Assembly: GCA_018449595.1 (NCBI GenBank)
Contig: JAAVUU010000003.1
Coordinates: 1-64,000 of the forward strand
Length of the DNA: 64,000 nucleotides
Reading direction: 5' to 3'
From: Rhizobiales bacterium dw_265
Lineage (GTDB): Bacteria; Pseudomonadota; Alphaproteobacteria; Micropepsales; Micropepsaceae
The notes under the pieces were generated by a model. The model was not told where the DNA came from. It did no database searches and saw only the letters and a program-made list of their open reading frames with translations. The stretch's first letter is position 1. Every line of letters starts with the position of its first letter. Shown here in pieces: positions 6,986 to 38,100 of the stretch. The translations under genes and the position numbers were made by a program.

Positions 6986-6995
6986 GGCGGGATTC

Positions 6996-16885: not shown

Positions 16886-17632
16886 TCAGCTGCCGCCCGC
16901 GACATTGTGGATGCGGCCCGAACCGGCGATATGGGTCTCCAGCCGCTTGGGATTGGCGTGCAGGAAGACATCGCCCGAGCCCGCGATATGGATGTCGGCT
17001 TCATCGCTGGGCGCGATGTTGGTGTCGCCGCTGCCGGCGATATGCACTTCCACCACCTTGGATTCCACCTTGCCCAGGTCGGCATCGCCGGAGCCGGCGA
17101 TATGGATTTCGGCATGCTCGACCTTGCCGTCGGCCTTCATGTTGCCCGCGCCCGCGATGGACAGTTTCAGCATCGCCTGGTCCAGCTTTTCCATCGCCAG
17201 GTTGCCGCTGCCGGCAATGCTGAATTTCTTGAACTGCTGGCCGGGCAGGGTGACCTGCAGGTTCTGCGACAGGCTGTGGAAGATGCCGCCGCTGCAGTCC
17301 ATTTCGATATTGCCGTTGCGTATCCGGATATGCGCCAGGGCCTGGGGATCGCCGCTGACATGCACCTTGTTGTCGCTGCCCGGCGTGTAATGCGCCTGGC
17401 CGCCCACCGACAGGCCGACATGGTCGCTGCCGTCCCAGTCCAGGTCGCGGCTGGTGGCGGTGGCGCCGGCAACGGCCTGGCAGCGCGGCCGGTCGCCGAA
17501 CATGGAGAAATCCAGGCCGTCGGCGAAGCCCTTGCCGCCGTTCTGGTTGGCTTCGATGGCTGCGCCCGCGCCCAGGCAGACGGCGGACAAGGTGATGCCG
17601 GCGACGGCGATCAAGGCGAGTTTGTGAACCAT
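16886..17632 (-). CDS. Exported DUF2807 (GIN-domain, auto-transporter-head-like) protein
   Basis: A 248-residue protein with a signal peptide ending near GAGAA. From residue 130 onward the chain is a right-handed beta-helix type repeat. The motif (H)IAGSGD/N occurs six to seven times at spacings of about 18-24 residues (SIAGSGN, SIAGAGN, HIAGSGD four times, HIAGSGR). This matches the DUF2807 fold. It is the last gene of a PadR-DUF1700-DUF2807 operon, starting 10 bases after the DUF1700 stop. The start at 17632 is preferred because it opens the signal sequence. It is likely a cell-envelope protein made when PadR releases its operator. Confidence 0.88.
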   Translation of the reverse strand: MVHKLALIAVAGITLSAVCLGAGAAIEANQNGGKGFADGLDFSMFGDRPRCQAVAGATATSRDLDWDGSDHVGLSVGGQAHYTPGSDNKVHVSGDPQALAHIRIRNGNIEMDCSGGIFHSLSQNLQVTLPGQQFKKFSIAGSGNLAMEKLDQAMLKLSIAGAGNMKADGKVEHAEIHIAGSGDADLGKVESKVVEVHIAGSGDTNIAPSDEADIHIAGSGDVFLHANPKRLETHIAGSGRIHNVAGGS

Positions 17633-17642
17633 GGCGTTCTCC

Positions 17643-18206
17643 TCAGACAGAAGCGTTGGCAGAATCGAACAGGCGGAAGTGCAGCCGCGCATAGCGGATC
17701 AACAGCTTGGCGATGATGTCCATCAGCAGCAGCAACAGCGCGCCGCCGCCGACCGCGCCGCTGATCAGGCCCAGCCCGATCAGCGCCTGTGCCCCGGGAT
17801 TGCCCATCACCCCGCCCCACAACAGGCTGACCAGCAGGAAGGCGCCGCCGACGATGCAGCCCAGGCAAGCCACCGCCAGGCCGAAGAACAGCGCCGCGAG
17901 GCCGCAGAGCAATGGCAGCAGAATGATGAGATCAAGCGTCGCCAGCCCCAGCAGCGCCAGCATCACGCCCAGGAAATTTCCCGGGCTGCGGTTCTGCTCC
18001 CAGCGCTTGAAGCCGACCTCGGCGCGCAACTCGCGCGCCAGCCGCGCCGGATCGCCCAGGGCGGCGGCGACTTCTTCCTCGGTGCGGCCGTCGGCGGCGC
18101 CGTCGGCGAAATGGCGCTCATAGTCGGTGACGATGTCGCCGATATCGACGTGGTGCAGGCCCGACAGGCCGTCGCGAAGCTGCGCCATGAAATGTGCGCG
18201 GTTCAT
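17643..18206 (-). CDS. DUF1700 membrane protein (PadR partner)
   Basis: A 187-residue protein with the DUF1700 pattern. The N-terminal 75 residues are cytoplasmic and helical (MNRAHFMAQLRDGLSGL, then VTDYERHF, and EEEVAAALGDPARLARELRAE). Four hydrophobic segments follow between about 78 and 175. Its ATG overlaps the PadR stop by 4 bases (ATGA), so it is translationally coupled. DUF1700 proteins are recurrent partners of PadR regulators and DUF2807/DUF4097 proteins, probably as a membrane sensor or anti-regulator. That role is inferred. Confidence 0.9.
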   Translation of the reverse strand: MNRAHFMAQLRDGLSGLHHVDIGDIVTDYERHFADGAADGRTEEEVAAALGDPARLARELRAEVGFKRWEQNRSPGNFLGVMLALLGLATLDLIILLPLLCGLAALFFGLAVACLGCIVGGAFLLVSLLWGGVMGNPGAQALIGLGLISGAVGGGALLLLLMDIIAKLLIRYARLHFRLFDSANASV

Positions 18207-18529
18207 GTTGCGTCTCCCAGGATTTTGCGCACGGCCTGCTCGAAGGCGATCCAGTCGCCGATCTGTGCCTTCAGCGCCAGCGCGCCGCTTTTGGTCAGCT
18301 TGTAGTATTTGCGCGGCGGGCCGCTGTCGGATTCCTGCAGATAGGTCGAAACCAGCCCTTCATTCTGCATCCGGCGCATCAGGGGATAGATGGTGCCTTC
18401 GCCCATGCCCACGGCCTCGGCCATGCGGCTGGCGATCTCGTAGGCGTAATTGTCGCCGCGGCTGAGGAGGGCCAGGACGCACATTTCCAGGACGCCTTTC
18501 TTGAGTTGGATTTGGAGTGACTCTGCCAT
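18203..18529 (-). CDS. PadR-family transcriptional regulator
   Basis: A 108-residue PadR subfamily-2-like winged-helix regulator. The signature is LKKGVLEMCVLALL, the recognition region YAYEIASRM, then GEGTIYPLMRRMQNEGLV, the wing RKYYKLTKSG and a short C-terminal dimer helix. Twenty-two bases upstream is a palindrome that it very probably binds. It heads the DUF1700-DUF2807 operon. The operator also lies 48 bases before the divergent deacetylase gene, so that gene may be in the regulon. Confidence 0.95.
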   Translation of the reverse strand: MAESLQIQLKKGVLEMCVLALLSRGDNYAYEIASRMAEAVGMGEGTIYPLMRRMQNEGLVSTYLQESDSGPPRKYYKLTKSGALALKAQIGDWIAFEQAVRKILGDAT

Positions 18530-18550: not shown

Positions 18551-18569
18551 TACCTTGCCTTACAAGGTA
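18551..18569. promoter_or_regulatory. PadR operator
   Basis: TACCTTG-N5-CAAGGTA is a perfect 7-base dyad in the divergent region between padR and the polysaccharide deacetylase gene. Dyads of this shape are typical PadR sites, and the location over the regulator promoter fits autorepression. Confidence 0.75.
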
Positions 18570-18617
18570 CTATTTCTGTTTTCCGACCTTTAAGGCTTTG
18601 GGCGCTAGAAAGCCGGG

Positions 18618-19358
18618 ATGAACCTCGCGATTCGCCTCACCAGCCTGATGGCCCGCAAGCTGCCGGTAAAGCCGATCCGGCTGGCGGGGCAGCGGCCGGT
18701 GGCCAGCATCAGCTTTGACGATTTCCCCAGGAATGCCTGGACCCTGGGCGGCCCGGTGATGGCCCGGCATGGGGTGCGGGGCACTTATTATACGGCGGGT
18801 GGCTTTTGCGGCCGCACCGTGGATGGGACCGAATTCTATGATGCCGAAGACCTGACGGCGCTGGCGGCGGCAGGCCATGAAATCGCCTGTCACGGCTTTG
18901 CCCATCAGCCGACGCCCAGCCTGACCACCGCCGAATTGGCCGCCGATGCCGCGCGCAACGGCGAATTCCTGAAGCCTTTCCTGGGCGGCGCGGCGCCGGT
19001 CAGCTATGCCTTTCCCTATGGCCGGGTGTCGCCCCGCACCAAGCGTTTCATGGCGCCGCGCTTTTCCTCCGTGCGCGGGGTGCATCCCGGCGTCAATGTC
19101 GGGCGCGTGGACCTGGCCCAGCTCAACACCATCTCGCTGGAAGCCCGCTGCTGGGACGAGGAAGCGATCGAAGCCGCGATCCAGCGCGTGCGGCAGGATC
19201 GCGGCTGGTTGATCCTTTATACCCATGATGTGCAGGAAAATCCGTCGCCTTACGGCTCCACGCCCAAGATGCTGGACTGGGCGCTGGGCCGCGTCGCCGC
19301 CGCTGGCATCACGATGCTGCCGGTGCGCGAGGCGCTGCCTGTGGCTTTAGGCGCCTAG
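18618..19358 (+). CDS. Polysaccharide deacetylase (NodB domain) family protein
   Basis: A 246-residue NodB-homology enzyme of the carbohydrate esterase 4 fold. Motif 1 is SFDDFP (Asp pair, with F-P in place of the usual G), and motif 2 is CHGFAHQ, which supplies the two metal-binding His. Motif 3 is SYAFPYGR, and late motifs are W-x-I-LYTHDV. There is no signal peptide, so it may act on a cytoplasmic or lipid-linked sugar. The last 12 bases overlap the end of the opposing TPP-enzyme gene. Possible PadR control is noted because of the shared intergenic operator. Confidence 0.85.
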   Translation: MNLAIRLTSLMARKLPVKPIRLAGQRPVASISFDDFPRNAWTLGGPVMARHGVRGTYYTAGGFCGRTVDGTEFYDAEDLTALAAAGHEIACHGFAHQPTPSLTTAELAADAARNGEFLKPFLGGAAPVSYAFPYGRVSPRTKRFMAPRFSSVRGVHPGVNVGRVDLAQLNTISLEARCWDEEAIEAAIQRVRQDRGWLILYTHDVQENPSPYGSTPKMLDWALGRVAAAGITMLPVREALPVALGA

Positions 19359-21017
19359 CGCCTTTTTGCGGATCGCGTTCAAGGTGGTGGTCGGCGAAAT
19401 GCCGTCGCCGTCGAACTTGACGTGAATGACGGACGGCAGCCCCGACTTTTCCGCCGCGAGGAAGGCCGCCGCGAAATCTTCCGTCTTTTCCACCGTGGCG
19501 CCGAAGCCGCCAAAGGCCCGCGCCATGGCGGCGAAGTCGGGGTTTTTCAAAGTGGTGGCGCTGATGCGGCCGGGATATTCGCGTTCCTGATGCATGCGGA
19601 TGGTGCCCAGCATGGCATTGTCCAGCACCACCGCGATGATCGGCAGCCCATACTGGACCGCAGTGGCGAATTCCTGGCCGTTCATCAGGAAATCGCCATC
19701 GCCATTGACCGCCAGCACGGTGCGTTCGGGATACAGCGCCTTCATCGCCACGGCGGCGGGCATGCCATAGCCCATGAAGCCGCAGATCGTGCCCATCTGG
19801 GTGTTGAATGTACGGAAGCGGTAGAAGCGGTGAATCCAGCCGGCATAATTGCCCGCGCCGTTGCAGATCATGGCGTCGGCGGGCAAATGGCCGCGCAGCC
19901 AGATCATGATTTGCGACAGGTTCACCGCGCCGGGCTGCGGCATCGGCGCTTCCGAGAAATCCAGATAGCTTTGATGTTCCGTCGTCACGTCATGCGTGTG
20001 CGCCGGCGTCAGCGTGTCCAGCGCGGCGGCGAAAGCCTGGGGGCTGGCGTGAATGGCGAGATGGGGATGATAGACCCGGCCCAGTTCCTCGGCGCCGGGA
20101 TAGGCATGCACCAGCTTCATCCGCGGCACCGGAATGTCGAACAGGGTATAGCCTTGGCTGGTCAGTTCGTTCAGCCGCGCCCCCGCCGCGATCACCAGGT
20201 CGGATGCCTTGACCCGCGCCACCAGTTTGGGATTGCAGGCCAGGCCCAGGTCGCCGGCATAATTGGGATGCAGGGGATCGAAATGATGCTGGCGGCGGAA
20301 GCTGGTCGCCACGGGAATGCCGAAGCGTTCGGCGAAGCGCGCCATTTGCGCCAACGCCGCCGCGCTCCAGCGGCTGCCGCCCAGGATCAGGAAGGGACGT
20401 TCGGCCTGGGCCAGCAACGCTTCCAGCGCCGCCATCTGCTCCGCGCCCGGCGCGGTCTCGATGCTTTCGATCCTGCCGCCATCCGGCGAGCGCGACGCCA
20501 TCGGCAGCACGTCATGCGGCAAGGACAGTACCACCGGACCCGGCCGCCCGGCCATGGCGGTGGCGAAGGCGCGGCCCACCATCTCGGCCATGCGGTCGGG
20601 CTCGTCGACCTCGGCCACCCATTTGGCCAGGCCGCCGAAGAAGGCGCGATAGTCCATTTCCTGGAAGGCGTCGCGGCCCCTGTTCTCACTCTCCACCTGC
20701 CCCACAAAAAGGATCATGGGGGTGGAATCCTGTTGCGCGATATGGATGCCGCCCGAGCCGTTGGTGGCGCCGGGGCCGCGGGTGACGAAACAGATGCCGG
20801 GCCGCCCGGTCTGCTTGCCATAGGCTTCCGCCATCATGGAGGCGCCGCCTTCGTTGCGGCAGGTGATGACGGCGATGCCGCTGTCATGCAGCGCGTCCAG
20901 CACCGGCAGATAGGATTCGCCCGGCACGCAGAAGACATGGCGCACGCCTTGGATACGCAACTGGTCCACCAGAACCTGTGCGGCGGTGCGGCTGGCGACT
21001 TGGGTGTGAAGGGTCAT
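19347..21017 (-). CDS. Thiamine-diphosphate-dependent enzyme (acetolactate-synthase-like)
   Basis: A 556-residue three-domain TPP enzyme. The Pyr domain carries the activating Glu in CRNEGGASMMAEAYG. The central domain has the usual GGSRWS region. The PP domain has the metal/TPP motif GDGDFLMNG with Asn about 27 residues on (VVLDNAMLGTIRMHQ). It lacks the features of a committed IlvB and no small IlvN subunit is adjacent, so it may be a carboligase or decarboxylase on another 2-keto or aldehyde substrate. Its ATG overlaps the stop of the GNAT-like gene (ATGA). Its position beside the carrier-protein genes suggests carbon-carbon bond chemistry in that pathway (inference). Confidence 0.88.
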   Translation of the reverse strand: MTLHTQVASRTAAQVLVDQLRIQGVRHVFCVPGESYLPVLDALHDSGIAVITCRNEGGASMMAEAYGKQTGRPGICFVTRGPGATNGSGGIHIAQQDSTPMILFVGQVESENRGRDAFQEMDYRAFFGGLAKWVAEVDEPDRMAEMVGRAFATAMAGRPGPVVLSLPHDVLPMASRSPDGGRIESIETAPGAEQMAALEALLAQAERPFLILGGSRWSAAALAQMARFAERFGIPVATSFRRQHHFDPLHPNYAGDLGLACNPKLVARVKASDLVIAAGARLNELTSQGYTLFDIPVPRMKLVHAYPGAEELGRVYHPHLAIHASPQAFAAALDTLTPAHTHDVTTEHQSYLDFSEAPMPQPGAVNLSQIMIWLRGHLPADAMICNGAGNYAGWIHRFYRFRTFNTQMGTICGFMGYGMPAAVAMKALYPERTVLAVNGDGDFLMNGQEFATAVQYGLPIIAVVLDNAMLGTIRMHQEREYPGRISATTLKNPDFAAMARAFGGFGATVEKTEDFAAAFLAAEKSGLPSVIHVKFDGDGISPTTTLNAIRKKALGA

Positions 21018-21841
21018 CCGAAAATCACTTTCTCGGTATAGGCGAGGTCGCCCAGTATAGGCCGCCAGGGGCCCTTGAAATAGCGCGGTTCCTTGCCGTC
21101 CACATAATGCGCGATCCCAGGCTGGCGGCCGTCAATCAGGAAGCCCAAGCGCCCGCGCGGCAGGAAATATTTCGCCAGGGCCGGGGCGCAGCGGCGCAAA
21201 TCCTCCGGTCCCCGGCAGAACATCACGTCCATCACTGGCGCAGGCGGCTTGTCCAGCCGGCGCGGCTTGAGCACAAAGGGCGAAACCAGGCCGTCTTTTT
21301 CCACCACCAGGCTGGTCCAGCCCATGGCGCGGTGATCGCGCAGCAATTGCGCCTCGGGCAGGTCGTCGGGGATCGCTGCGCGGACAGCGCCACGGCCGGG
21401 CAGGGCGAACACCGCGCTGCGGCCGAAATTGTAGGGCTCGAAGCCCTGGGCCTGCAGGGTGCGCCAGGTGTGCGGCGCGGGCGAGGCATTCAGGTAAGTG
21501 ACATGCCTCAGCCTGGTCGCCAGCGAGATCAGCAAAGTGGAATGGGCGCGCCACTGTGGTTCGACATACCAGCTCGACAGGTTGGAGATGATGTGGCCGT
21601 CACGTTGCGACGAGATCAGCAGGATCACGCCCACTGGCCCCAGGCCGCCATCCAGCACGTAGCCATAGCGCGGCACGCCTTCGACCACGGGCAGGTTGCG
21701 CCATTGCGCGAAGCCGTCGGTCCAGTATTGCCGCCGCGCGGCCGGGAAGCCGCGCGTCAGCAGGTCGGCCAGTCCGTCCAGATCGGCATCGGCAATGGGA
21801 CGGCAGCGCACCCGCGCGGCCGCCTGCGGTTCCACGGTCAT
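21014..21841 (-). CDS. GNAT-like acyltransferase (uncharacterised)
   Basis: A 275-residue protein with an N-terminal half that reads like a GNAT fold (PIADADLDGLADLLTRGFP, GYVLDGGLGPVGVILLIS, SWYVEPQWRAHSTLLISLA). The last is close to the acyl-CoA loop region. The second half is less familiar (MDVMFCRGPEDL..., YFLPRGRLGFLIDG). It might transfer an acyl or aminoacyl group and may receive it from one of the carrier proteins. It is first in a two-gene unit with the TPP enzyme and divergent from the carrier-protein gene at 21922. No close functional assignment is possible. Confidence 0.6.
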   Translation of the reverse strand: MTVEPQAAARVRCRPIADADLDGLADLLTRGFPAARRQYWTDGFAQWRNLPVVEGVPRYGYVLDGGLGPVGVILLISSQRDGHIISNLSSWYVEPQWRAHSTLLISLATRLRHVTYLNASPAPHTWRTLQAQGFEPYNFGRSAVFALPGRGAVRAAIPDDLPEAQLLRDHRAMGWTSLVVEKDGLVSPFVLKPRRLDKPPAPVMDVMFCRGPEDLRRCAPALAKYFLPRGRLGFLIDGRQPGIAHYVDGKEPRYFKGPWRPILGDLAYTEKVIFG

Positions 21842-21921
21842 GACGCTTTATGGAGCAGGCGCCATTAGCCAATCGTTAAAGCTGATCCGGCTAGATTGGC
21901 GCGGATTTCCGCGAGGCCCCC

Positions 21922-22167
21922 ATGAGTGTCGAGACTATCGTTCGCGCCGAATTCGAAACCGTGGCCCGCGAGCAGGAAAAGACCCTGACGGGCCTTAGCG
22001 ACGACACGGTGCTGCTGGAATCCGGGCTGGATTCCCTGTGCTTCGCCATCATCGTGGCGCGGCTGGAAGACCAGTTGGGCGTGGACCCTTTCACCGCCTC
22101 GGAAGACGTCTATTTCCCCGTGACCATGGGCGACTTCATCAAATTCTACCAAGATGCAGCGGCCTGA
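21922..22167 (+). CDS. Stand-alone acyl/aminoacyl carrier protein 1
   Basis: An 81-residue carrier protein. The phosphopantetheine Ser is Ser38 in the block ESGLDSLCFA, within a four-helix acidic domain. A GAGG lies 6 bases before the ATG. The last 14 bases overlap the start of the adenylating ligase, so the two are translated together and that ligase is the natural loader. It differs clearly from a fatty-acid ACP (DSLCFAIIVARLE in place of DSLDTVE). It is one of two stand-alone carriers in the cluster. Confidence 0.9.
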   Translation: MSVETIVRAEFETVAREQEKTLTGLSDDTVLLESGLDSLCFAIIVARLEDQLGVDPFTASEDVYFPVTMGDFIKFYQDAAA

Positions 22168-23452
22168 ATCCCTGCGGGCCGCGATTGCGGGTTCGCATGC
22201 CGACCTGTTGGGGCGGCACCTCCACGTTAATCTTGCAGAAATGGGCCGCGTACTCACCGCCGATCTCACCGGCGCGCGCGTGCTGCTGCGGACCTCCGAC
22301 CAGTTGTTCGCCGCCCTGGCCCTGATCGAATTGGACGGTGTCGCCGCCCGCATCGTGATCTGCCCGCCCGACGTGAAGCCCGATCATCTGCCGTCGGTGA
22401 TCGAACGCGCCGCGATTGACGTGGTGGTGGGCGAGGACCCGGCGCTGGCGCTGGAGGGCATGCGGTTCGAGGAATTGCATCCGCCCGTACCCGGCGCTGC
22501 TGTCGCGGTGTCGCGCAAGACAGAATGGGTCTTGTTCACCTCCGGCACCACCGGCGCGCCCAAGATGGTGGCGCACACCCTGGAAGGGCTGACCGGCGCG
22601 ATCCGGCCCGCTACGGCAGACGATGTTGTGTGGGGCACCTTCTATGACATCCGCCGCTATGGCGGCTTGCAGATCCTGTTGCGCGCGTTGCTGGGCCATG
22701 CCTCGCTGATCCTGTCGGATGCGAACGAAGACGTGGCCGGCTTCCTGGCCCGCCTGGCGCCCGTCACCCATCTGACCGGCACGCCGTCGCACTGGCGGCG
22801 CGCCCTGATGAGCCCCGCCAATGCCAGGGTCAACCCGCGCTATGTCCGCCTGTCGGGCGAGATCGCCGACCAGGCCGTGCTGGACAGCCTGAAGGCGCGC
22901 TTTCCCGAGGCGGCGATAGGCCATGCCTATGCCTCGACCGAAGCCGGGGTGGGCTTTGAAGTCACCGATGGCCTGGAAGGCTTTCCGGCCAGCTTTATCG
23001 GCCGCCCCGGCGCCGTCGAGATGAAAGTCGAAAACGGCACCCTGCACATCCGCTCGCCGCGCACGGCGTCGGAATATGTCGGCGGAGGCGCGTTGCTGAA
23101 CGATGGCTGGGTGGACACCACCGATATGGTGGAACAGCGTGGCGCGCGCTTTTATTTCGTGGGCCGCACCGGCGGCATCATCAATGTCGGCGGCCTGAAG
23201 ATCAACCCCGAGGAAGTGGAAGCGGTCATCAACCGCCATCCCGATGTGCGCGCCAGCCGCGTTTCGGGGCGCAAGAATCCCATCACCGGGGCCATCGTGG
23301 TGGCCGATATCGTCGCCAACGACAATGCCACTTTAAAAGAAGAAATCCTGGCGCTGTGCCGCGAGAAGCTGCCCGCCTTCAAGGTGCCGGCCATGCTGCG
23401 CGTGGTGCCGGCGCTGGAACTGACGGCCGGAGGGAAGATCAGCCGTGCGTAA
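22154..23452 (+). CDS. AMP-forming acyl/carrier ligase (ANL superfamily)
   Basis: A 432-residue adenylating enzyme, shorter than usual acyl-CoA ligases (500-550). The order of motifs is P-loop LFTSGTTGAPKMVAH near 130, YASTEAG near 260, the TTDMV region, GRTGGIINVGGLKINPEEVE and the C-terminal catalytic Lys in GGKISR. The N-terminal subdomain is compact. It probably activates a carboxylate and loads it on carrier 1, with which it overlaps. The SDR begins 8 bases inside its 3' end. The substrate is not predictable by eye. Confidence 0.88.
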   Translation: MQRPESLRAAIAGSHADLLGRHLHVNLAEMGRVLTADLTGARVLLRTSDQLFAALALIELDGVAARIVICPPDVKPDHLPSVIERAAIDVVVGEDPALALEGMRFEELHPPVPGAAVAVSRKTEWVLFTSGTTGAPKMVAHTLEGLTGAIRPATADDVVWGTFYDIRRYGGLQILLRALLGHASLILSDANEDVAGFLARLAPVTHLTGTPSHWRRALMSPANARVNPRYVRLSGEIADQAVLDSLKARFPEAAIGHAYASTEAGVGFEVTDGLEGFPASFIGRPGAVEMKVENGTLHIRSPRTASEYVGGGALLNDGWVDTTDMVEQRGARFYFVGRTGGIINVGGLKINPEEVEAVINRHPDVRASRVSGRKNPITGAIVVADIVANDNATLKEEILALCREKLPAFKVPAMLRVVPALELTAGGKISRA

Positions 23453-24170
23453 TGTCCTGGTCAGTGGCGGCACCCGCGGCGTCGGGCTGGCGATTGCCCG
23501 CAAGCTGGCGGCGGACGGCTATGCCGTCTTCGCCCTGGGCCGCAAGGAGAGCGATGCCCTGTCGGCGGCCATCGCGGAATTTCCCGCAGGCGTGATGAAC
23601 TTCGTGCCTTTCGACCTGGCCAATATCGATGTGATCCCCGACCTGATCCGCGAGATGAAGGTCGCGCACGGCCCGCTTTACGGCCTGGTCAACAATGCGG
23701 CCCTGGGCACCGAAGGCCTGCTGTCCAACATGCACAATTCCGATATCGAGAAGCTGGTGAAGCTCAATACCGTCTCGCCCATCGTGCTGACCAAATATGC
23801 CGTGCGCGCCATGATGACCAGGGGCGAGGGCCGCATCGTCAATATCAGCTCCATCATCGGCTTTACGGGTTACAGCGGCCTGTCGGTCTATGGCGCCACC
23901 AAGGCCGCGATGCTGGGCTTCACCCGCAGCCTGGCGCGGGAAGTCGGGCGGCTGGGCGTGACGGTCAATGCCGTGGCGCCGGGCTTCATGGATACCGAAA
24001 TGACCGCCGGCATGACGGACGACCAGCGCGGCAAGATCGCGGCGCGCGCCGCGCTGAAGCGGCTGGTGGACGTGGATGACGTTGCCGCCAGCGTCGCTTT
24101 CCTGATGAGCGATGCGGCGAAAAACATCACCGGCACGGTGATGACCGTGGACGCCGGCAACACCGCCTAG
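23445..24170 (+). CDS. Short-chain dehydrogenase/reductase (FabG-like)
   Basis: A 241-residue classical SDR. It has a cofactor glycine motif SGGTRGVGLA, the NNAA block (VNNAALGTEG), catalytic Ser in NISSIIG, the Y-x3-K pair in YGATKAA, and a FabG-style tail (VAPGFMDTEMT, NITGTVMTVDAG). NADP(H) use is likely from the loop after strand 2 (LGRKES). It starts at a GTG overlapping the ligase stop by 8 bases, so it is co-translated with the carrier and ligase. A 3-oxoacyl- or imine-reducing step on a carrier-bound intermediate is inferred. Confidence 0.93.
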   Translation: MRNVLVSGGTRGVGLAIARKLAADGYAVFALGRKESDALSAAIAEFPAGVMNFVPFDLANIDVIPDLIREMKVAHGPLYGLVNNAALGTEGLLSNMHNSDIEKLVKLNTVSPIVLTKYAVRAMMTRGEGRIVNISSIIGFTGYSGLSVYGATKAAMLGFTRSLAREVGRLGVTVNAVAPGFMDTEMTAGMTDDQRGKIAARAALKRLVDVDDVAASVAFLMSDAAKNITGTVMTVDAGNTA

Positions 24171-24331
24171 GCGTTCTGCACCCGCAGGGACGAGACCGGG
24201 TCGCTGGCCGGAAAGGTGCCTTCCAGCGCCCCATCCAGAATCACGTCGAGTTCGCGTTCCAGATCAAAGGCTTCCTGGGCCAGGCGCGGCTGGGCCGTCA
24301 CGGGGCGGAAATTCCTGTCGAAAAAGGCCAT
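24167..24331 (-). CDS. Small 54-residue conserved-looking protein
   Basis: A short gene with a very good ribosome site (GGAAAGGAG, 6 bases before the ATG at 24331). The product is acidic, with an amphipathic helix (EAFDLERELDVILDGALEG) and a tail TFPASDPVSS. The TFPASDP tail recurs in small alphaproteobacterial proteins as I remember them. It follows the amino acid:carrier ligase by 62 bases on the same strand and its stop overlaps the SDR stop by 4 bases. It may be a small partner of the cluster; the function is unknown. Confidence 0.7.
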   Translation of the reverse strand: MAFFDRNFRPVTAQPRLAQEAFDLERELDVILDGALEGTFPASDPVSSLRVQNA

Positions 24332-24393
24332 GGCATTCTCCTTTCCCGACATGTGGGAAGCAAATGGCGTGCGCAAAGGCCCAGCGGCGATTT

Positions 24394-25335
24394 TTACAGC
24401 CGCAGCGCCTGCCGCACCCCGGCGGGCCAATCGGCGATTTTCGCGCCATGGGTGACGAAAAGCGCCACGGCCAGCCGGTCCATGCCGAAAGCGACACAGC
24501 CGGTATGCAGAACCTGGCCGGCTGCGTTGTGCAGGCCCCAGACTTCGCCGAAATGTTCCTTGTGGTAATTGAAGCTCATGCAGGCGGTGGGGCTTTGCGC
24601 CGACCGCACCGGCACCAGCAGTTCGAACTTCAGCGCATCCTCGCGCTGCTGGTTGGCCATCATCGTGCCGACCCGGCCGAAGAAGGGATCGTTGGCGACT
24701 TCCACGATGTAGCTCAGGCCGATGGCGTCGGCGATGCCCTTGGCGCGTTCCACCCAGGGTTCACGGAAGTCCTGGATCTGCTGCGGCGTGCCGATGCGGA
24801 CATATTCGCGCATGCGGAAGCTCTGGAAGCGGTCGACATGCCGCGACGGCTCGTGGCGGAAACAGTCGGCGGCCACGTCGAAGACATAGCCTTCATCCGG
24901 CACGATGCCGCGCCCGGCGGCGATGGGGTAAATCGGATAACAGGCGGCGGGGGCCAGCACCAGGTCGGACGGCTTGAGGTCTTCGGTCCAGTCGCCGCCA
25001 TTTTCATATTTGGCGGCGGACTTGCTGATGTCGCGGTCGCTGCCGGTCAGGGTGGAGACGGCGCCGATCAGTTGCGGGAAACTGTTGAGATAGCCCTGCT
25101 TCTCCAGGCTGGCGCGCGGCATCACCGGCGCGAAGCGGAACACTTCGGCGTCCTGGGGGCGGTGGCTGGAAATCAGCGCCGCCAGGGCCTCGATCACGCT
25201 TTCATAGGCGCCGGTGCGGCCATAGACGCCGTCCACGCCCGACGGCTTGAACAGTTGCGACACGGTGGCGTGCAGATGCTCCGGCTCGAAACTGTGATCG
25301 CAGCAGGCGTGCGAAATCGGCGTGGCGATGTTCAT
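24394..25335 (-). CDS. Amino acid:[carrier protein] ligase (class II synthetase-like)
   Basis: A 313-residue relative of seryl-tRNA synthetase that lacks the tRNA-binding arm. Class II motif 2 is seen in DCFRHEPSR and motif 3 in FGMDRLAVAL. Cys132 (PAACYP), Glu177 (RMREYV) and Cys280 (HTGCVAFG) sit within a residue or so of the three zinc ligands known for the Bradyrhizobium enzymes. Those enzymes activate glycine or alanine and load it on the phosphopantetheine of a small carrier protein. It lies 3 bases after the ACAD-fold gene, and carrier protein 2 is just beyond, divergently. I infer that it charges carrier 2. Confidence 0.9.
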   Translation of the reverse strand: MNIATPISHACCDHSFEPEHLHATVSQLFKPSGVDGVYGRTGAYESVIEALAALISSHRPQDAEVFRFAPVMPRASLEKQGYLNSFPQLIGAVSTLTGSDRDISKSAAKYENGGDWTEDLKPSDLVLAPAACYPIYPIAAGRGIVPDEGYVFDVAADCFRHEPSRHVDRFQSFRMREYVRIGTPQQIQDFREPWVERAKGIADAIGLSYIVEVANDPFFGRVGTMMANQQREDALKFELLVPVRSAQSPTACMSFNYHKEHFGEVWGLHNAAGQVLHTGCVAFGMDRLAVALFVTHGAKIADWPAGVRQALRL

Positions 25336-25338
25336 GGC

Positions 25339-26532
25339 TCAATCCCGGATGGAGGTGGGAATATCGGACAGGATGGTCGAACTGGTCAGGCTGGACAGGA
25401 TGCGGTCGTTGTTGATCATGATGGGCGAGGACAGCACGTCGCGCAGCGCCCGGCCCACCGACACCTCGGTATCGTTGCGATAACCGGACAAGCCGGTGGC
25501 GCGCATGGCGTTCATCACCGTCTCCACCGCCAGTTCGCTGGCATCCACCTTCAGCAGGCTGACGGCGGTCTGGAAATCGATCGCGGTCAGCGCCCTGGCG
25601 TCGCCCTGGATGGCTTCATAGCGTGACAACAGCGCCCCAATAAGCGCCCGCAGCTGGCGCAGGTTGGCCAGCGCCTTGGTGAAGTGCGGCACGCCGGGCG
25701 GCAGGTCGCCGCCGGCGCGCGCCGCCTTGCGCATGAACTTGCGGGCGCGGTCCACCGCGCCCGCGGCGATGCCGGCCCAGTTGGCCGCCCACATCAGATG
25801 GGCGCTGGGCACCATGGTCTGGCTGTGAATGATGCTGTAGGGGCCCGGCATGATCTGGTCCGGGCTGCCGACGGCTTTCAAGGTGAAACCGGCGGAACAA
25901 GTGCCGCGCATGCCCAGCGTGTCCCAGCCCATGGTTTTTTCCAGCGAATAATTCTTGCGTTCGAACACCACCAGCACCTGGTCGCTGGCGTCGGACTGCG
26001 CCGTGCGCCGCGCCGTGGTCACCACCGCGTCGGCTTCCACGCCATAGGAGATCACGCTGGCGTCGCGCACCAGCACGATGCGGCCATCGGCCTGTTCCAC
26101 CGGCGCTTCGGAGGCGCGCACATTGCCGCCGCCCTTGCCTTCGGTGGTGGAGGAGGCCAGCAGCAGCTGGCCGGCGGTCATGCGGGTCATGAAATCGCGG
26201 TGCCAGGCGCTGTCCATGCCGTGATGGACGATGCAGGCGGCCTTCACCTGGTGCATCGCATAGATCATGCCGGTGGAGGAACAGGCGCGGCCCAGGGTAT
26301 AGCAGACATCCACCACATCGGCGACGCCGGCGTCCTCGCCGCCCAGCGATGCGGGCACCAGGATGCCCAGCAGGTTTTCGGCTTTCAGCGCGTCCATGGC
26401 CTCCTGCGGGAAGCGGCCCCGCGCGTCCACATCGTCGGCATGTTGCGCGGCGATCGCGGCGGCGCGCGCGGCGCGGGCGGCGGTGCCCTCGGGGATGGAA
26501 CGGGAGGCGAGGGTGTTGGCGGTTTGCGGCAT
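25339..26532 (-). CDS. Acyl-CoA-dehydrogenase-fold flavoprotein, atypical active site
   Basis: A 397-residue ACAD-family flavoenzyme: helical N-terminal domain, a beta domain with the FAD-contacting STTEGKGGG and a helical C-terminal domain. In the C-terminal block where most ACADs have IYEG, this reads SPIMINNDRI after the conserved RD, so the catalytic Glu position holds Ile by eye alignment. The alternative Glu position (used by isovaleryl-type enzymes) seems to be His in SAHLMWAAN. It may be an oxidase or N-oxygenase rather than a simple dehydrogenase. It is in an operon with the amino acid:carrier ligase, so an aminoacyl-carrier is the likely substrate. Confidence 0.85.
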   Translation of the reverse strand: MPQTANTLASRSIPEGTAARAARAAAIAAQHADDVDARGRFPQEAMDALKAENLLGILVPASLGGEDAGVADVVDVCYTLGRACSSTGMIYAMHQVKAACIVHHGMDSAWHRDFMTRMTAGQLLLASSTTEGKGGGNVRASEAPVEQADGRIVLVRDASVISYGVEADAVVTTARRTAQSDASDQVLVVFERKNYSLEKTMGWDTLGMRGTCSAGFTLKAVGSPDQIMPGPYSIIHSQTMVPSAHLMWAANWAGIAAGAVDRARKFMRKAARAGGDLPPGVPHFTKALANLRQLRALIGALLSRYEAIQGDARALTAIDFQTAVSLLKVDASELAVETVMNAMRATGLSGYRNDTEVSVGRALRDVLSSPIMINNDRILSSLTSSTILSDIPTSIRD

Positions 26533-26695
26533 CGCACGCTCTTTTCGGGTCAGGCGCCGAACGATAAGGCGTAAACCTGAAGCAAGGGTGAACTCGGCGG
26601 CGCATGGTAATCAAAGCGTTAATGCGCCCGCCGGCGTTGGGGGCAACCAATGGTTTACGCATGGCGGGTAGATTGCGGGCTTCAGGAGTTCCGCC

Positions 26696-26947
26696 ATGTC
26701 CTCGCCGCGTGACCGCATCACCGCCATCGCTTCCCGCATGCTGTTCAAGCGCGGCGTCACCGCCATTCCGGGTTCCGGCGACAACCTGCGCGAGGCGGGG
26801 CTGACCTCGCTGGACATGGTCAACCTGATGCTGGCCATCGAGGGCGAATTCGACATCGAGATTCCGCAAAGCGCCATGACGCCCGACAATTTCGACACCG
26901 TCGCGGCGATCGAGGCCCTGGTTTCGGTCACCGCCAAGGCGGCCTGA
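26696..26947 (+). CDS. Stand-alone aminoacyl carrier protein 2
   Basis: An 83-residue carrier protein. Ser38 in REAGLTSLDMV is the phosphopantetheine site, with Thr in place of the usual Asp before Ser. The TSLDMVNLMLAIE...FDIEIPQ pattern resembles carriers paired with the class II-type amino acid:carrier ligases. It is divergent from the ACAD-fold gene over a 163-base region and 34 bases upstream of the esterase. I infer that it carries the aminoacyl group made by the ligase at 24394. Confidence 0.9.
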   Translation: MSSPRDRITAIASRMLFKRGVTAIPGSGDNLREAGLTSLDMVNLMLAIEGEFDIEIPQSAMTPDNFDTVAAIEALVSVTAKAA

Positions 26948-26981
26948 TGCTTCGCCAGAAGCATCCTAAGAAAGAGTAGCG

Positions 26982-27980
26982 ATGCCGCTGGACCGCCATG
27001 CCCGCCGCTTCCTGGAAATGCTGGCCGCCGCCGGCCAGGCCAAGGGCCGCTATGACGATGTCGCGGAGCGCCGCGCCGCCCTGGCCAACCTGGCCGACAT
27101 GGTCGATCCCCCCGGCACGGTGGAGATCGGCGGGGTGCGCGAACACCTGATGCCGGTTCATGACGGCCATATTTCCCTGCGCATCTATTCGCCGCTGGGC
27201 TTGCCGGCGCGCGTGCTGCCCGGCATGCTGTTCTTTCATGGCGGCGGCTGGGTGGCGGGCAGCCTGGAAACCCATGACGGCTTGTGCCGCCGCCTGTCCA
27301 ACGAGACCGGCTGCCGAGTCATCGCGGTGGATTACCGCCTGGCGCCGGAACATCCTTTTCCCTACGGCCTGGCCGACGCCATCGCGGCGCTGAATTTCGT
27401 GGTGAAATATCCCAAAGCCTTCGGCGTGGACCCGCAGCGGCTGGGCATTGCGGGCGACAGCGCTGGCGCCACCCTGGCGGCCGTGGTGTGCCGCATCGCC
27501 CGCGATGCGGGAGGCCCGGCGATTGCCTTCCAGTTGCTGGTCTGCCCCATCCTCGACATCCATGGCGAATCCGCGGCGCGGCGCGAACTCAGCGAAGGCT
27601 ATTTCCTGGACAGCGAAACCCTGACGCGCGACCTGGAACTGTATGTGCCCGGCGATATCGAACGCGCGGACCTGCGCCTGTCGCCGCTGTGCGCCGAGGA
27701 ATTCGCCGGCCTGCCGCCCGCCTTCATCCATACCGCCCAGTTCGATCCCTTCAGCGACGAGGGCGAGGAATATGCCCAGAAGCTGGGCGGCTTCGGCGTG
27801 CCGGTGCATGGCCGCGCCCATCCCGGCATGATCCATTATTTCTATTGCATGCCGCGCATGATCCCTTACGCCGACGAGGCGATGCGCATCATCGGCACCG
27901 AAATCCGCTATGCGGTGAAACTGCCCCAGTTGGAGCGCCGCGTTCAGAGGCGGATCAGGCCCGAACTGATCCGGGCATAG
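26982..27980 (+). CDS. Alpha/beta hydrolase of the hormone-sensitive-lipase family
   Basis: A 332-residue esterase. The HGGGW oxyanion motif is at 86-90, nucleophile Ser160 is in GDSAGA, and the acid lies in the DPFSDEGEEYA block. The catalytic His is in AHPGMIHYF. There is no signal peptide. It follows carrier protein 2 directly and could release the product from a carrier or remove an ester-protecting group. Its last 37 bases run tail-to-tail over the end of the FATP-like ligase gene. Confidence 0.92.
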   Translation: MPLDRHARRFLEMLAAAGQAKGRYDDVAERRAALANLADMVDPPGTVEIGGVREHLMPVHDGHISLRIYSPLGLPARVLPGMLFFHGGGWVAGSLETHDGLCRRLSNETGCRVIAVDYRLAPEHPFPYGLADAIAALNFVVKYPKAFGVDPQRLGIAGDSAGATLAAVVCRIARDAGGPAIAFQLLVCPILDIHGESAARRELSEGYFLDSETLTRDLELYVPGDIERADLRLSPLCAEEFAGLPPAFIHTAQFDPFSDEGEEYAQKLGGFGVPVHGRAHPGMIHYFYCMPRMIPYADEAMRIIGTEIRYAVKLPQLERRVQRRIRPELIRA

Positions 27981-29698
27981 AGCGCCGCATCCAGCGGCTC
28001 CCAGCCGGCGCCGCAATCCACATACAGCGGGTCGGCGGTGGCGGCGGGATCGAAACCGTCCCGCGCCAGGGCATGCTTCTTCTGCTTGAAGGTCTCGGTG
28101 ACCGCCAGGCTTTCGACGATGCGCACAAAGATCGGCCGGGCATAGGCGGGCAAACGAAGGGCGCAATGGGCGCGGAACCCGTCCAGCCGGAAATCGTCGC
28201 CGACTTCCAGCGCCGCCATGCCGGCCTTGCCGTCCTGGCCGGGCACGGCGACGCCATAGATATTGGCGGCTTTCACCCCGGGGGCGCGGGCGGCGACGGC
28301 GGCGACTTCGGTGGTGGCGACATTCTCGCCCTTCCAGCGGAAGGTGTCGCCGACGCGGTCCACGAAATAGAAGAAGCCCTGCGCGTCCTGGCGCATCAGG
28401 TCGCCCGAGCGCACCCAGGCGTCGCCGGGCGTGAAGACATCGCGCAGGATTTTCTTTTCGCTGGCGGCCGGGTCGGTATAGCCCTCGAACCGCGCCGCGC
28501 CGCCGGCGATCTTGCCGATGGCCTCGCCGCTTTCGCCGCGCGCCACCGCGATGCACAGTCCGTCGGGTCCGCGCGCGGGAACGCCCAGCGCATCATCGAA
28601 CTTCACAATGGCGGTGGGGAAGCGATGCGCCAGAAAAGGGGGGATGCGGCCGATGGAGCCCGGACGGCCTTCCGCATTGTAGAGCGAGAAATTGCCTTCG
28701 GTGGCGGCATAGAATTCCAGCACCTGCGGAATGGCGAAGCGGTCCTGGAACGCCTCCCACACATCGCCCGACAGGCCGTTGCCCACCGCCAGCCGCAACT
28801 TGTGCGGCGGGGCTTCCATGTTGGACGCCAGCAGATAGCGGCACAATTCGCCGATATACTGAAAGATGGTCGCGTCATTGTCGGCCACATCGCGCCAGAA
28901 AGCGCGGGCGGAGAATTTCTCGCGCAATATCACCGATCCGCCCGCCAGCAGCACCGCGCCCGAGGCCACCACGCCGCCGACGCTGTGATACATGGGCAGG
29001 CAATTGTAGAGCCGGTCATCGGCGCGCGCGCCGGTCATGCCGGCGAACCAGTGGGTCCAGCTCATCACCCGGCGATGGCTGACATAGGCGGCCTTGGGCA
29101 GGCCGGTGGTGCCGGAGGTGTAGATCAGCAAGGCGCGGTCGTTCAGCGTCACCTCGGGCCTTTCGGCATCGGTCAACGGCGCGCCGGAAAAACCGTCCAG
29201 CATCAGGTTGAACGCCGCGCCATGCCACCAGCGCCGCGCCCGCCCGTTCAAGGGATCGAGGTTCGCGCCCACGATGATGTGCCTGGGCGCGGCGACGCGG
29301 ATGCAGTGCCCCAGCGCCTCGCCTTTCAGGTTGGTGTTGAGCAGCGCCACCACGCCGCCGATGCGGGTGATGCCCAGCCAGACCGCCAGATAGTCGGGGC
29401 AGTTGGACATCAGCAGCGCCACCACGTCGCCCTTGCCGATGCCCTCCGACAGCGCCCAGCGCGCCACTTTGTTGGCGCGGGCAGCGAGTGCGGCATGGCT
29501 GAGGGTTTCGTGCAGCCCGATCAGCGCGGGGGCATCGCCGAAGCGCGCGCCCAGTTCCTCGATCACGGCCGGGAAGATGCGCGACGGCGCGTCCTCGATC
29601 CTGGCGGTCATCTCCAGCGCGCGCAGCCACGCTTTCGATGCCGATGGGTCTTTTTTCGCCAGGGGCGCGGCGGCCGTCATGCCAATTCCGTTATCCAT
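27944..29698 (-). CDS. FATP/very-long-chain acyl-CoA synthetase-like ligase
   Basis: A 584-residue ANL enzyme of the fatty-acid-transport/VLACS branch. The motifs are IYTSGTTGLPKAAYVSH near 210, the FYAATEGNFSLYN block, SGDLMRQDAQGFFYFVDRVGDTFRWKGENV split as in FATP, and a C-terminal VTETFKQKK with the catalytic Lys. It activates a long or bulky acyl chain, with CoA as the usual acceptor. The start at 29698 (MDNGIG) or 29680 (MTAAAP) cannot be settled. It is divergent from metY. I place it in the carrier-protein cluster because it converges on the esterase. Confidence 0.92.
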   Translation of the reverse strand: MDNGIGMTAAAPLAKKDPSASKAWLRALEMTARIEDAPSRIFPAVIEELGARFGDAPALIGLHETLSHAALAARANKVARWALSEGIGKGDVVALLMSNCPDYLAVWLGITRIGGVVALLNTNLKGEALGHCIRVAAPRHIIVGANLDPLNGRARRWWHGAAFNLMLDGFSGAPLTDAERPEVTLNDRALLIYTSGTTGLPKAAYVSHRRVMSWTHWFAGMTGARADDRLYNCLPMYHSVGGVVASGAVLLAGGSVILREKFSARAFWRDVADNDATIFQYIGELCRYLLASNMEAPPHKLRLAVGNGLSGDVWEAFQDRFAIPQVLEFYAATEGNFSLYNAEGRPGSIGRIPPFLAHRFPTAIVKFDDALGVPARGPDGLCIAVARGESGEAIGKIAGGAARFEGYTDPAASEKKILRDVFTPGDAWVRSGDLMRQDAQGFFYFVDRVGDTFRWKGENVATTEVAAVAARAPGVKAANIYGVAVPGQDGKAGMAALEVGDDFRLDGFRAHCALRLPAYARPIFVRIVESLAVTETFKQKKHALARDGFDPAATADPLYVDCGAGWEPLDAALYARISSGLIRL

Positions 29699-29863: not shown

Positions 29864-31177
29864 ATGCGCGCTGAAACTCTCGCTTTGCACGCTGGCTTCG
29901 ACGCCGATCCCGCCACCAAAGCGGTGGCGGTGCCGATCTACCAGACGGCGGCCTATCAGTTCGACACCGCCGACCAGGGCGCGGCGCTGTTCAACCTGGA
30001 AGAAGAAGGCTATCGCTACAGCCGCATCGCCAATCCCACCGTGGCGGTGCTGGAAGCCCGCGTCGCGGCGCTGGAAGGCGCGGCCGGCGCGCTGGCGACG
30101 GCGAGCGGACAGGCGGCGCTCTATTATGCTTTCGCCAATGTGGCCCATTCTTGTGGGAAGGGGGCCGGCCGGAACATCATCGCCACGCCGCAGCTTTACG
30201 GCACCACGCATACCTTGCTGCACAGCGTGTTGCCGGGGCAGGGCATCACCGGCCGCTTCGCCGCCGGCGACGGCCCCGAAGCCATCGCCAATTGCATCGA
30301 TGAAAACACCGCCGCGGTGTTCTGCGAGACGGTGGGCAATCCCGCTGGCAATGTCTGCGACATCGAGGCCATCGCCCGGGTGGCGCACGACCATGGCGTG
30401 CCGCTGATCGTGGACAATACCGTGGCGACGCCGGTGCTGCTGAAGCCGGCCGATTATGGCGCCGACATCATCGTGCATTCCCTGACCAAGTTCATGGGCG
30501 GCCATGGCAGCGCCATGGGCGGCATTGTGGTGGATGCGGGCAATTTCGACTGGATGGCCAATTCCGACCGCTTCCCGCAATTCACCACGCCGGACCATTC
30601 CTATCACGGCCTGGTCTATGCCGAACGCTTCGGCAGGACCGCCTTCATCGCCCGCGCCCGCAGCGTCTACCAGCGCACCATGGGCGCCATCCTGTCGCCG
30701 ATGAGCGCCTTCCTGCTGCTGCAAGGCATCGAGACGGTGGCGCTGCGCGTCGAGCGCCATGTCGAGAACGGCCGCCGGGTGGCGGAATTCCTGCGCGGCG
30801 ATGCGCGGGTGGCCTGGGTGAATTATGCCGGCTTCGCCGAGAGCCCCTATCACGCCCTGGCCAACAAATATCTGGGCGGCCGTCCCGCTTCGCTGCTGAC
30901 TTTTGGCGTCAAGGGCGGCTTCCAGGCGGGCAAGGATTTCTACGATGCACTGGGACTTATCAAGCGGCTGGTCAATATCGGCGACGCCAAGTCGCTGGCC
31001 TGCCATCCCGCCTCCACCACCCATCGCCAGATGCCGCAGGCCGAGCAGCGCAAGGCCGGGGTGACGCCGGAAACCATCCGCCTGTCCGTCGGCATCGAAC
31101 ACAGCGACGACATCATTGCCGATCTCGATCAGGCGCTCGCCGCCGCCATGCGCGCCCAGATCAAGGTGGCGCGATGA
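29864..31177 (+). CDS. metY: O-acylhomoserine sulfhydrylase (aminocarboxypropyltransferase)
   Basis: A 437-residue PLP enzyme of the Cys/Met metabolism family that joins sulfide to O-acetyl- or O-succinylhomoserine, giving homocysteine for methionine. The N-terminal ETLALHAGF and VPIYQTAAYQF, the PLP-Lys block VHSLTKFMGGHG and the family insertion of this longer MetY type (YASLAN-like region near 340) are visible. Length exceeds MetB/MetZ (about 400), favouring MetY. It overlaps metA by 4 bases (ATGA), so the two enzymes act in sequence. Confidence 0.95.
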   Translation: MRAETLALHAGFDADPATKAVAVPIYQTAAYQFDTADQGAALFNLEEEGYRYSRIANPTVAVLEARVAALEGAAGALATASGQAALYYAFANVAHSCGKGAGRNIIATPQLYGTTHTLLHSVLPGQGITGRFAAGDGPEAIANCIDENTAAVFCETVGNPAGNVCDIEAIARVAHDHGVPLIVDNTVATPVLLKPADYGADIIVHSLTKFMGGHGSAMGGIVVDAGNFDWMANSDRFPQFTTPDHSYHGLVYAERFGRTAFIARARSVYQRTMGAILSPMSAFLLLQGIETVALRVERHVENGRRVAEFLRGDARVAWVNYAGFAESPYHALANKYLGGRPASLLTFGVKGGFQAGKDFYDALGLIKRLVNIGDAKSLACHPASTTHRQMPQAEQRKAGVTPETIRLSVGIEHSDDIIADLDQALAAAMRAQIKVAR

Positions 31178-35539: not shown

Positions 35540-35592
35540 AAGACCTGAAGAGTTCCAGACAGTTCCCGCAGATGCGGGCGTGAGGTTTGACG

Positions 35593-37020: not shown

Positions 37021-37032
37021 TCCTTCTCCCAA

Positions 37033-37161
37033 TGTCATGGCCCGCCGGAGAGCGGGCCACCCAGTTGGGGAGGAACGCCGAACCGGAGACATGGATCGCA
37101 GCGCAAATGGTTGATGCCAGCGCGGCGTCACCTGGGTGGCCCGCATTTGCGGGCCATGACA
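37033..37161. repeat. Nested palindromic repeat element, copy B
   Basis: Begins TGTCATGGCCCGC and ends with its reverse complement. The first 37 bases match copy A exactly, and the inner CACCTGGGTGGC stem matches too. It fills the hpnJ-hpnK gap inside the operon and may attenuate or stabilise the transcript there. Confidence 0.85.
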
Positions 37162-37165
37162 AGTT

Positions 37166-38005: not shown

Positions 38006-38100
38006 GAATATCAAGGGCTTAGGCCCCAGTGCGCGGGGTGCATTTTGGGGTTCAATTGCCCCCGCCAAAGGGGTATTGCAATAGCGAATTGGAGAGTCAT

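Follow-up and report, generated by a model that had tools for sequence, protein, structure and literature searches.

What chemistry would call for two carrier proteins and ligases of three kinds to be encoded side by side? This question is raised by a gene cluster on contig JAAVUU010000003.1 of Rhizobiales bacterium dw_265 (assembly GCA_018449595.1), of which a stretch of 64,000 nt (hereafter the window, to whose positions all coordinates refer) was analysed. A preliminary description had read positions 18551-29698 as a single pathway in which an aminoacyl-carrier is oxidised and then joined to the acyl group of the other carrier or to a unit derived from thiamine pyrophosphate (TPP). We assigned families with Pfam and NCBIfam/TIGRFAM models and read the loci of relatives by use of tblastn. 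The cluster unites two carrier-protein modules, A and B. Our tentative answer, which we place somewhat short of an even chance, is that acyl thioesters are made on the two carriers for a dedicated N-acyltransferase, the acceptor most likely being an amino sugar in a precursor of surface glycans. The parts, their homologies, their modularity and their co-occurrence were computed; from these we infer every substrate, the order of the steps, the use of the carriers by the GNAT-like protein and the sugar acceptor. A literature search limited to the open PMC library found no paper on this gene set.

Is the cluster more than a chance assembly? The full locus begins with a padR-like gene (a name given from reading) and a polysaccharide deacetylase (PSD) gene and ends with a metZ-metA pair (29864-32172). 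The range first proposed did hold the genes assigned to it, but the PSD gene of the same locus had not been counted and the unit extends downstream past that range to metZ-metA. The whole gene order was shared by one relative (locus L021 of genome G018; L and G numbers designate loci and genomes throughout), an identical order was found in L023 (G059) until the contig ended inside the esterase gene, and L027 (G070) had the identical order without the GNAT-like gene. Because the order recurs in L021, L023 and L027, the cluster is real rather than due to chance. Eleven genes lay where the preliminary description had put them and belonged to the families it had named, with two corrections, one concerning the basis of the GNAT label (see below) and the other a 54-residue protein. 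The alternating divergent and convergent layout also agreed with the coordinates of the open reading frames (ORFs), as did the overlap of the short ANL (adenylate-forming) ligase gene (22154-23452) with that of carrier protein 1 (21922-22167). The 54-residue ORF (24167-24331, - strand; no Pfam match) had been counted as a cluster member. It gave no tblastn match in L021-L032 and none in the plasmid collection, and the gap between the short-chain dehydrogenase/reductase (SDR) gene and the aminoacyl ligase gene (58 bases in L021, 2 bases in L023) is too small for it, which places the ORF outside the conserved set. Hence, it was rejected as a part of the pathway.

Do the two modules then form one pathway? 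We searched 96 genomes of the order, including the window's own, and 385 genomes evenly drawn from the class; N for the class was taken as 380, five same-genus genomes in the class listing being excluded, and all co-occurrence p values are hypergeometric and ignore kinship. The order sample held 12 genomes with the GNAT-like gene, 4 with the module A ligase, 6 with the ANL ligase and 15 with the PSD (that of G032, cut by a contig end, is not among the 15). In the class sample 10 genomes had a module A ligase over the cut-off, 7 a GNAT-like gene (one marginal), 9 an ANL ligase (two weak) and 4 a DUF1839 protein. Among the 96 order genomes the whole set stood at a single locus in the window genome, in G018 and, up to the contig end, in G059. 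Partial forms consisted of everything except the aminoacyl trio and the esterase (G071), PSD-TPP-GNAT-carrier 1-esterase-metA plus a 34-residue metZ match (G053), PSD-TPP-GNAT-metA (G068), PSD-TPP-metA (G069, G075, G083), PSD-esterase-metA (G025, G081), PSD-GNAT-metA (G033, G036, G073, and cut in G032) and, on a contig of small length, FATP-carrier 1-GNAT (G034); in G044 the GNAT, carrier 1, ANL, SDR, metZ and FATP genes lay at a different place without the PSD. These forms look like block-wise gain or loss and, because single genes persist alone, they argue against one obligatory pathway.

Outside the genus, the check for co-occurrence found pieces of both modules in G164 and G452, but at split loci. 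In G164 the FATP, SDR, ANL, carrier 1, GNAT and TPP genes lay together and an ACAD-ligase-metZ-metA run lay on another contig, where carrier 2 was not found by tblastn. In G452, of Bradyrhizobium type, carrier 2 and ACAD-ligase-GNAT were at one place, FATP-carrier 1-ANL-SDR was 1.4 Mb away, and a TPP enzyme 58% identical to that of the window was unlinked. In G071, G044, G280 and G338 module B had no aminoacyl ligase with it, and many genomes carried just one of the two modules. Clear GNAT-like genes were found outside the genus in G164, G280, G338 and G452 (four families). All four genomes carried an ANL ligase, which is present in 5 of 380 genomes (p = 6e-9), and two carried the module A ligase, present in 8 of 380 (p = 0.002). 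The clear sets leave out the GNAT of G165 (E 9.9e-6) and the ANL ligases of G145 and G240 (partial, weakest); with these included p was 2e-7. That the modules separate freely in other genomes, that the GNAT, TPP or esterase gene persists alone beside the PSD in the genus, and that 2 of the 5 clear ANL genomes outside the genus hold the module A ligase would suit a different view, in which two or three independent pathways merely share the stretch between metA and the deacetylase and modules A and B are unrelated. We consider this unlikely, as the order's 4 module A genomes all fall among its 6 ANL genomes (p = 4.5e-6), and both modules recur with the GNAT-like gene, at separate loci, in G164 and G452, which belong to other families. 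The single-pathway claim was thus supported in part: the pieces co-occur loosely in other families and belong together in that sense, but they are separable and persist in partial sets, and the results lend no support to one fixed pathway.

Module A is, judged by sequence, the Bll0957 system of Bradyrhizobium. Its amino acid:[carrier protein] ligase (24394-25335, - strand), which resembles class II aminoacyl-tRNA synthetases (aaRS), scored 444 bits with NF005479 (cut-off 357). The closest solved relative is the Bll0957 ligase (3mey/4h2w), Bll0957 chains matching with E 2e-122 or better; the ligase of G452 (L052), which is nearly identical to crystallised Bll0957, is 57% identical to that of the window. 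Upon scanning of the single ligase protein against the genome contigs one locus was returned (1 of 37 pattern stretches). Residues C132, E177 and C280, which we take to be zinc ligands, were identical in all 12 aligned ligases, in keeping with the zinc ligands first noted. Carrier protein 2 (26696-26947, + strand), of the aminoacyl carrier type, had as its best profile match 4h2s_C, Aminoacyl carrier protein 1 (4.4e-30), and its phosphopantetheine Ser38 was kept in 10 of 10 aligned proteins; its single-protein NCBIfam score of 54.8 was under the cut-off of 72. The carrier 2 profile also matched PDB entry 8zt4, 'Carrier protein,GNAT family transferase', at 1.6e-8, a possible template for carrier-GNAT transfer. 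Of eight over-cut-off ligase loci outside the genus, five (L050, L051, L052, L054, L055) held carrier 2, the acyl-CoA dehydrogenase (ACAD)-fold gene and the ligase together, and the others held ACAD plus ligase (L056), ligase plus carrier (L053) and the ligase alone (L057). The ligase search gave 16 genomes, 6 of which were under the cut-off and excluded from the counts; the loci of 5 of these were fetched (L058-L063, G431 not being among them), and tblastn found neither carrier 2 nor the ACAD gene there. In L052 the methylthioadenosine salvage genes mtnA and mtnP (5343-7343) lie beside carrier 2. In the proposed scheme the ligase would load a small amino acid on carrier 2, presumably glycine by analogy with Bll0957, the specificity of which we take to be for glycine.

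Could the ACAD-fold protein oxidise the aminoacyl-carrier, as had been suggested? This flavoprotein candidate (25339-26532, - strand) matched PF02771 and PF00441 over cut-off, the PF02770 middle domain not being among the listed matches, and its sole solved relative at E<=1e-20 was distant. The proposal gains from the ligase-ACAD neighbourhood, which was found at 6 of the 8 over-cut-off loci outside the genus, but the canonical catalytic acid is absent. Acyl-CoA dehydrogenases carry a catalytic Glu or Asp at the E376-type position, which comes after a conserved Arg-Asp region. In the register given by alignment with a canonical relative, that position was I or V in 10 of 10 proteins and was followed by an invariant NNDR. 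Owing to this replacement ordinary desaturation is unlikely, and an ordinary desaturase was rejected as a candidate. Moreover, if the amino acid is glycine the carrier-bound group has no beta carbon and desaturation would be impossible. Our guess is that the protein oxidises the amine or the alpha carbon of the aminoacyl thioester, so that N or C-alpha oxidation, rather than alpha,beta-desaturation, would be the second step of module A.

What would take the group from carrier 2? In G452 the GNAT-like gene directly follows the Bll0957-type ligase gene. In the four DUF1839 genomes (two families) it is the DUF1839 gene that directly follows the ligase, and all four carry the module A ligase (p = 8e-8). 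Plasmid records matching the ligase numbered 63; four were opened, the fourth being without annotation, and in the three annotated stretches, from Rhizobium binae, Mycetohabitans rhizoxinica and Azospirillum argentinense, DUF1839 again came after the ligase. The slot after the ligase held a GNAT-like or DUF1839 gene in 5 of the 8 over-cut-off loci outside the genus. The ten ligase genomes divided into four with the GNAT-like gene (G000, G018, G164, G452), four with DUF1839 (G279, G372, G375, G449) and two with neither (G225, G408), and no genome among the 385 matched both searches. The portion of PMC10318531 consulted describes DUF1839 as papain-like, in a superfamily that also holds BtrH, an ACP:aminoglycoside acyltransferase, and predicts from context that it processes glycans in an acyl-CoA-dependent manner. 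Given the kinship of DUF1839 with BtrH and a GNAT-like protein in the same slot, a transferase is a tenable reading for either ending of module A. It is mainly because two unrelated candidate transferases share this slot that we infer the GNAT-like protein to be the transferase of module A.

Is the GNAT-like protein (275 aa; 21014-21841, - strand) fitted to such a role? None of the 13 GNAT-like proteins matched a Pfam GNAT model at E<=1, and a sequence search of the PDB gave no relative, its 17 matches all being plant chymotrypsin inhibitors (E 0.1-0.5). The label given in the preliminary description therefore stands on predicted-structure topology and Foldseek, not on a family match. An AlphaFold (AF2) model made from two-sequence input (pLDDT 48.6, pTM 0.35) had the strand and helix order of a GNAT, and Foldseek with this low-confidence model gave 48 matches at E<=0.001, those listed being nearly all GNAT acetyltransferases, including tandem GNATs. 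In GNATs the pyrophosphate of coenzyme A (CoA) is bound by a [QR]xxGx[GA] loop. This loop was absent at the motif-A site in 12 of the 13 proteins, and the 13th matched off-register; the missing CoA loop would suit a carrier-protein donor, and the GNAT-like gene is found in the company of carrier genes. GNATs with carrier-protein donors are documented, namely SbzI, SbzC and FeeM (PMC6331615, in the section consulted). We propose that the GNAT-like protein would take a carrier-bound acyl group and form an amide with an amine. The GNAT-like gene is followed by the TPP gene with a 4-base overlap, and the GNAT-TPP pair was also found in G164.

Module B begins with carrier protein 1 (21922-22167, + strand; PF00550), whose Ser38 lies in a GLDSL motif invariant in 10 of 10 aligned proteins. 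It is followed on the same strand by the short ANL ligase (22154-23452; PF00501/PF13193) and the SDR, a FabG-like reductase (23445-24170; PF13561, TIGR01830 below cut-off). Outside the genus seven ANL loci were read (L072, L073, L074, L090, L091, L092 and L093, the last two being weak ANL relatives); the SDR adjoined the ANL ligase in every ANL locus read except L093, where one gene lay between. A FATP-like acyl-CoA/acyl-carrier ligase (27944-29698, - strand; NF006134, 703.8 against a cut-off of 625) accompanied module B within the genus in G018, G070, G071 and G044, besides the window, and at 3 of the 7 ANL loci outside it (G164, G338, G452). The ANL ligase would load an acid on carrier 1, the SDR would reduce the loaded acid, and the FATP-like ligase may supply or activate a further acid. 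A Pfam-less protein of 215-228 aa lies beside module B in two families (L072 9155-9802, L029 13204-13890); the two read alike and are candidates for a haem-oxygenase-like di-iron protein. The weak ANL relatives of L092 and L093 are accompanied by carrier proteins, an SDR and KASIII-like genes, of which PF08541 was confirmed for L092 but not L093. As L092 also has NeuB and flagellin, it resembles a module for N-acylation in flagellin glycosylation.

The frequent company of a FATP-like long-chain ligase (NF006134) and a FabG-like SDR with carrier 1 also bears on an N-acyl lipid of the glycine- or ornithine-lipid type, in which these two enzymes would give a 3-hydroxyacyl group on carrier 1 and the GNAT-like protein would move the chain to an amino acid. 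N-acyltransferases of the OlsB type use 3-hydroxyacyl-ACP, which fits such a route. However, the conserved set showed no sign of a second O-acyltransferase, a separate aaRS-like ligase would be needless if the amino acid were free, and weak ANL relatives with an SDR have either NeuB and flagellin or a PseH-like GNAT nearby (L092, L093). We hold a lipid product to be distinctly improbable.

On what, then, would the acyl groups be placed? Companion genes elsewhere suggest that the loaded acids end up on cell-surface amino sugars. Glycan genes confirmed by family models lay within ~8 kb at 5 of the 7 ANL loci outside the genus: an O-antigen ligase and an epimerase near module B in L072, a UDP-sugar dehydrogenase ~7 kb off with unrelated genes between in L073, a nucleotidyl transferase near module B in L074, PseI and a cytidylyltransferase in L091, and NeuB and flagellin in L092. 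Within the genus, module B of G044 has as neighbours a flippase-like protein and a GNAT of the Acetyltransf_6 family; further genes at G044 and L072 we take, from reading their sequences, to be export genes. The earlier proposal that the aminoacyl group is joined either to the other carrier's acyl group or to a unit of TPP origin found no direct support, these contexts pointing to an amine acceptor, probably on a sugar. In the window's genus that amine would perhaps be freed by the neighbouring deacetylase. This PSD (18618-19358, + strand; PF01522, 3.2e-16) is HfsH-like only, as it scored 174 bits with the HfsH model NF050820, the cut-off of 400 not being reached; of the order's 12 genomes with the GNAT-like gene 9 also had the PSD, against 15 of the 96 overall (p = 7e-7). 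In Caulobacter the deacetylase HfsH would expose amines that, according to one suggestion, the GNAT HfsK acylates (PMC5362036, part consulted).

Several observations weigh against an amino sugar acceptor and a dedicated GNAT. The 5 of 7 is a raw count without a random-locus background. No glycan gene was noticed within ~10 kb of the Bradyrhizobium-type loci L052 and L090, none was confirmed near the ANL locus of L093, and no annotated glycan gene adjoined the four-gene unit with DUF1839 on the Rhizobium plasmid. Outside the genus no PSD homologue was noticed at the GNAT loci (L052, L072, L073, L074), the GNAT-like gene occurred without the PSD in G044 and G034, and six PSD genomes had no GNAT-like gene, including G025, G069, G075, G081 and G083, in which the PSD stood beside the TPP or esterase gene only. 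G070 has both modules, yet the GNAT-like gene is absent. 'GNAT-like' is itself kept as a working label, the fold being predicted from a weak model. The TPP enzyme, the esterase and metZ/metA have no place in the proposed scheme, no role having been found for them. Caulobacter has a relative, Hirschia baltica. Deletion of hfsK in H. baltica was without holdfast effect, according to the part of PMC8449245 consulted. A fuller form of the amino sugar reading would have aaRS-like ligases feed surface-glycan chemistry, the ACAD-fold protein make an imino, N-hydroxy or oxo acyl group, a CoA-independent GNAT or DUF1839 transfer it to an amino sugar, and the two arms build a compound N-acyl substituent; this fuller form we regard as unlikely.

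The genes without a place in this scheme need separate consideration. The TPP-dependent enzyme (19347-21017, - strand) is acetolactate-synthase-like (NF006052, 844 bits against a cut-off of 539), and its closest solved relative, BbmA, was not informative. Homologues at E<=1e-60 were present in 10 of 11 genomes (31-100% identity, often unlinked), which says little because the 11 genomes were picked for cluster genes, without a control set. Within the genus the TPP gene often pairs with the GNAT-like gene and stands without it in G069, G070, G075 and G083. In L026 (G071) an aminotransferase-IV-like gene (7002-7877, named from reading) lies between the PSD and TPP genes. The HSL-family esterase (26982-27980, + strand; PF07859, 6.5e-67; NF058653, 303 bits, the cut-off of 350 not being reached) is optional; in G025 and G081 only the PSD and metA are left with it. 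The metZ product (29864-31177, + strand) is a pyridoxal phosphate enzyme like O-acetylhomoserine sulfhydrylase (TIGR01326, 578 against a cut-off of 495), and metA (31174-32172, + strand; NF003776, 340.6, just under the cut-off of 358) encodes a homoserine O-acyltransferase-like protein and in most relatives forms the distal boundary of the locus. Whether metZ is a mere housekeeping gene is undecided: G033, which lacks a gene of the cluster type, had only a 47% metZ paralogue, G452 had four metZ homologues, and G053, where most module genes are gone, had only the 34-residue match. The metZ and TPP homologue checks left out G059, G053, G068 and other relatives.

The recurrence of methionine genes raises the prospect of a diffusible small molecule, in which the GNAT-like protein would couple the acyl or aminoacyl group borne by a carrier either with an amino acid in free form or with S-adenosylmethionine (SAM), in the manner of FeeM or LuxI, the met genes supplying or recycling SAM. 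Thus metZ lies beside module B in G044 and, as metZ-metA, in G338, metZ-metA follows ACAD-ligase in G164, and mtnP-mtnA is beside carrier 2 in G452. LuxI is a GNAT-fold enzyme with an acyl-carrier donor. FeeM is another (PMC6331615, in part), and in a 30-gene table transcripts and proteins of bll0957, bll0958 and bll1105 (metZ) were raised in a Bradyrhizobium diazoefficiens phaR mutant (PMC10888616). The recurrence together with this joint rise would suit a SAM- or homoserine-derived product. However, the window metZ is of the O-acetylhomoserine sulfhydrylase type, bll1105 is only a candidate orthologue, and no PhaR motif is listed for bll1105 (PMC10888616). Furthermore, no recurring regulator, exporter or receptor was seen, save the padR-like gene that also borders module-free loci, and 5 of the 7 ANL loci outside the genus are near glycan genes. 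We therefore think a diffusible product improbable, and retain transfer to an amino sugar as the preferred reading.

Two neighbouring regions of the window were also read. At 16886-18529 lie the padR-like gene (from reading), a HAAS-domain protein (PF22564) and a 268-aa secreted-looking protein, relatives of which are arranged in tandem in several related genomes. A gene run at 34430-47875 has squalene-hopene cyclase (45956-47875, TIGR01507 over cut-off) as its last gene and looks like a hopanoid cluster, its other genes being named from reading only.

How does the locus compare with known systems? It shares with the Bradyrhizobium Bll0957 system (3mey, 4h2s) the ligase family, the zinc positions, the carrier type and the ACAD neighbour, and in G452 that system also has the GNAT-like gene; the difference is that here one locus adds to it a further carrier/ligase module, together with a deacetylase, a TPP enzyme and a met pair. 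The ACP-ACAD-ligase-DUF1839 operon of rhizobia, Azospirillum and Mycetohabitans has the first three genes in common, the fourth being DUF1839 rather than GNAT. The Caulobacter pair HfsH/HfsK likewise combines a deacetylase of this kind with a GNAT-type protein, but the window's HfsH score is under the cut-off and its GNAT-like protein has no match to Acetyltransf_6, which we take to be the domain of HfsK. In DltABCD a ligase charges a carrier with an amino acid of the Gly/Ala type, which a transferase then moves to a molecule of the cell surface; DltABCD and AlmEFG use another ligase fold and other transferases, and have no ACAD step. AlmEFG passes carrier-bound glycine to surface lipid A, as stated in the portion of PMC12930378 consulted, and is comparable in logic only. 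The altemicidin/SB-203208 pathway (SbzB/L-SbzG/K-SbzC/I) has two adenylate-forming ligases, two carriers and carrier-fed GNATs (PMC6331615, section consulted). It is, unlike the present locus, a Streptomyces antibiotic pathway with loading ligases that are adenylate-forming rather than aaRS-like, and was compared by description. These comparisons yield two candidate acyltransferases, GNAT-like and DUF1839, for one slot after the ligase, and also indicate to what kind of molecule the acyl group is likely to be passed. Of most use are two results, that the partner behind the aminoacyl-carrier ligase is exchangeable and that the sister module has a glycan context; through these the role of these aaRS-like ligases, called unknown in the consulted part of a 2022 review (PMC9437257), is opened to direct testing.

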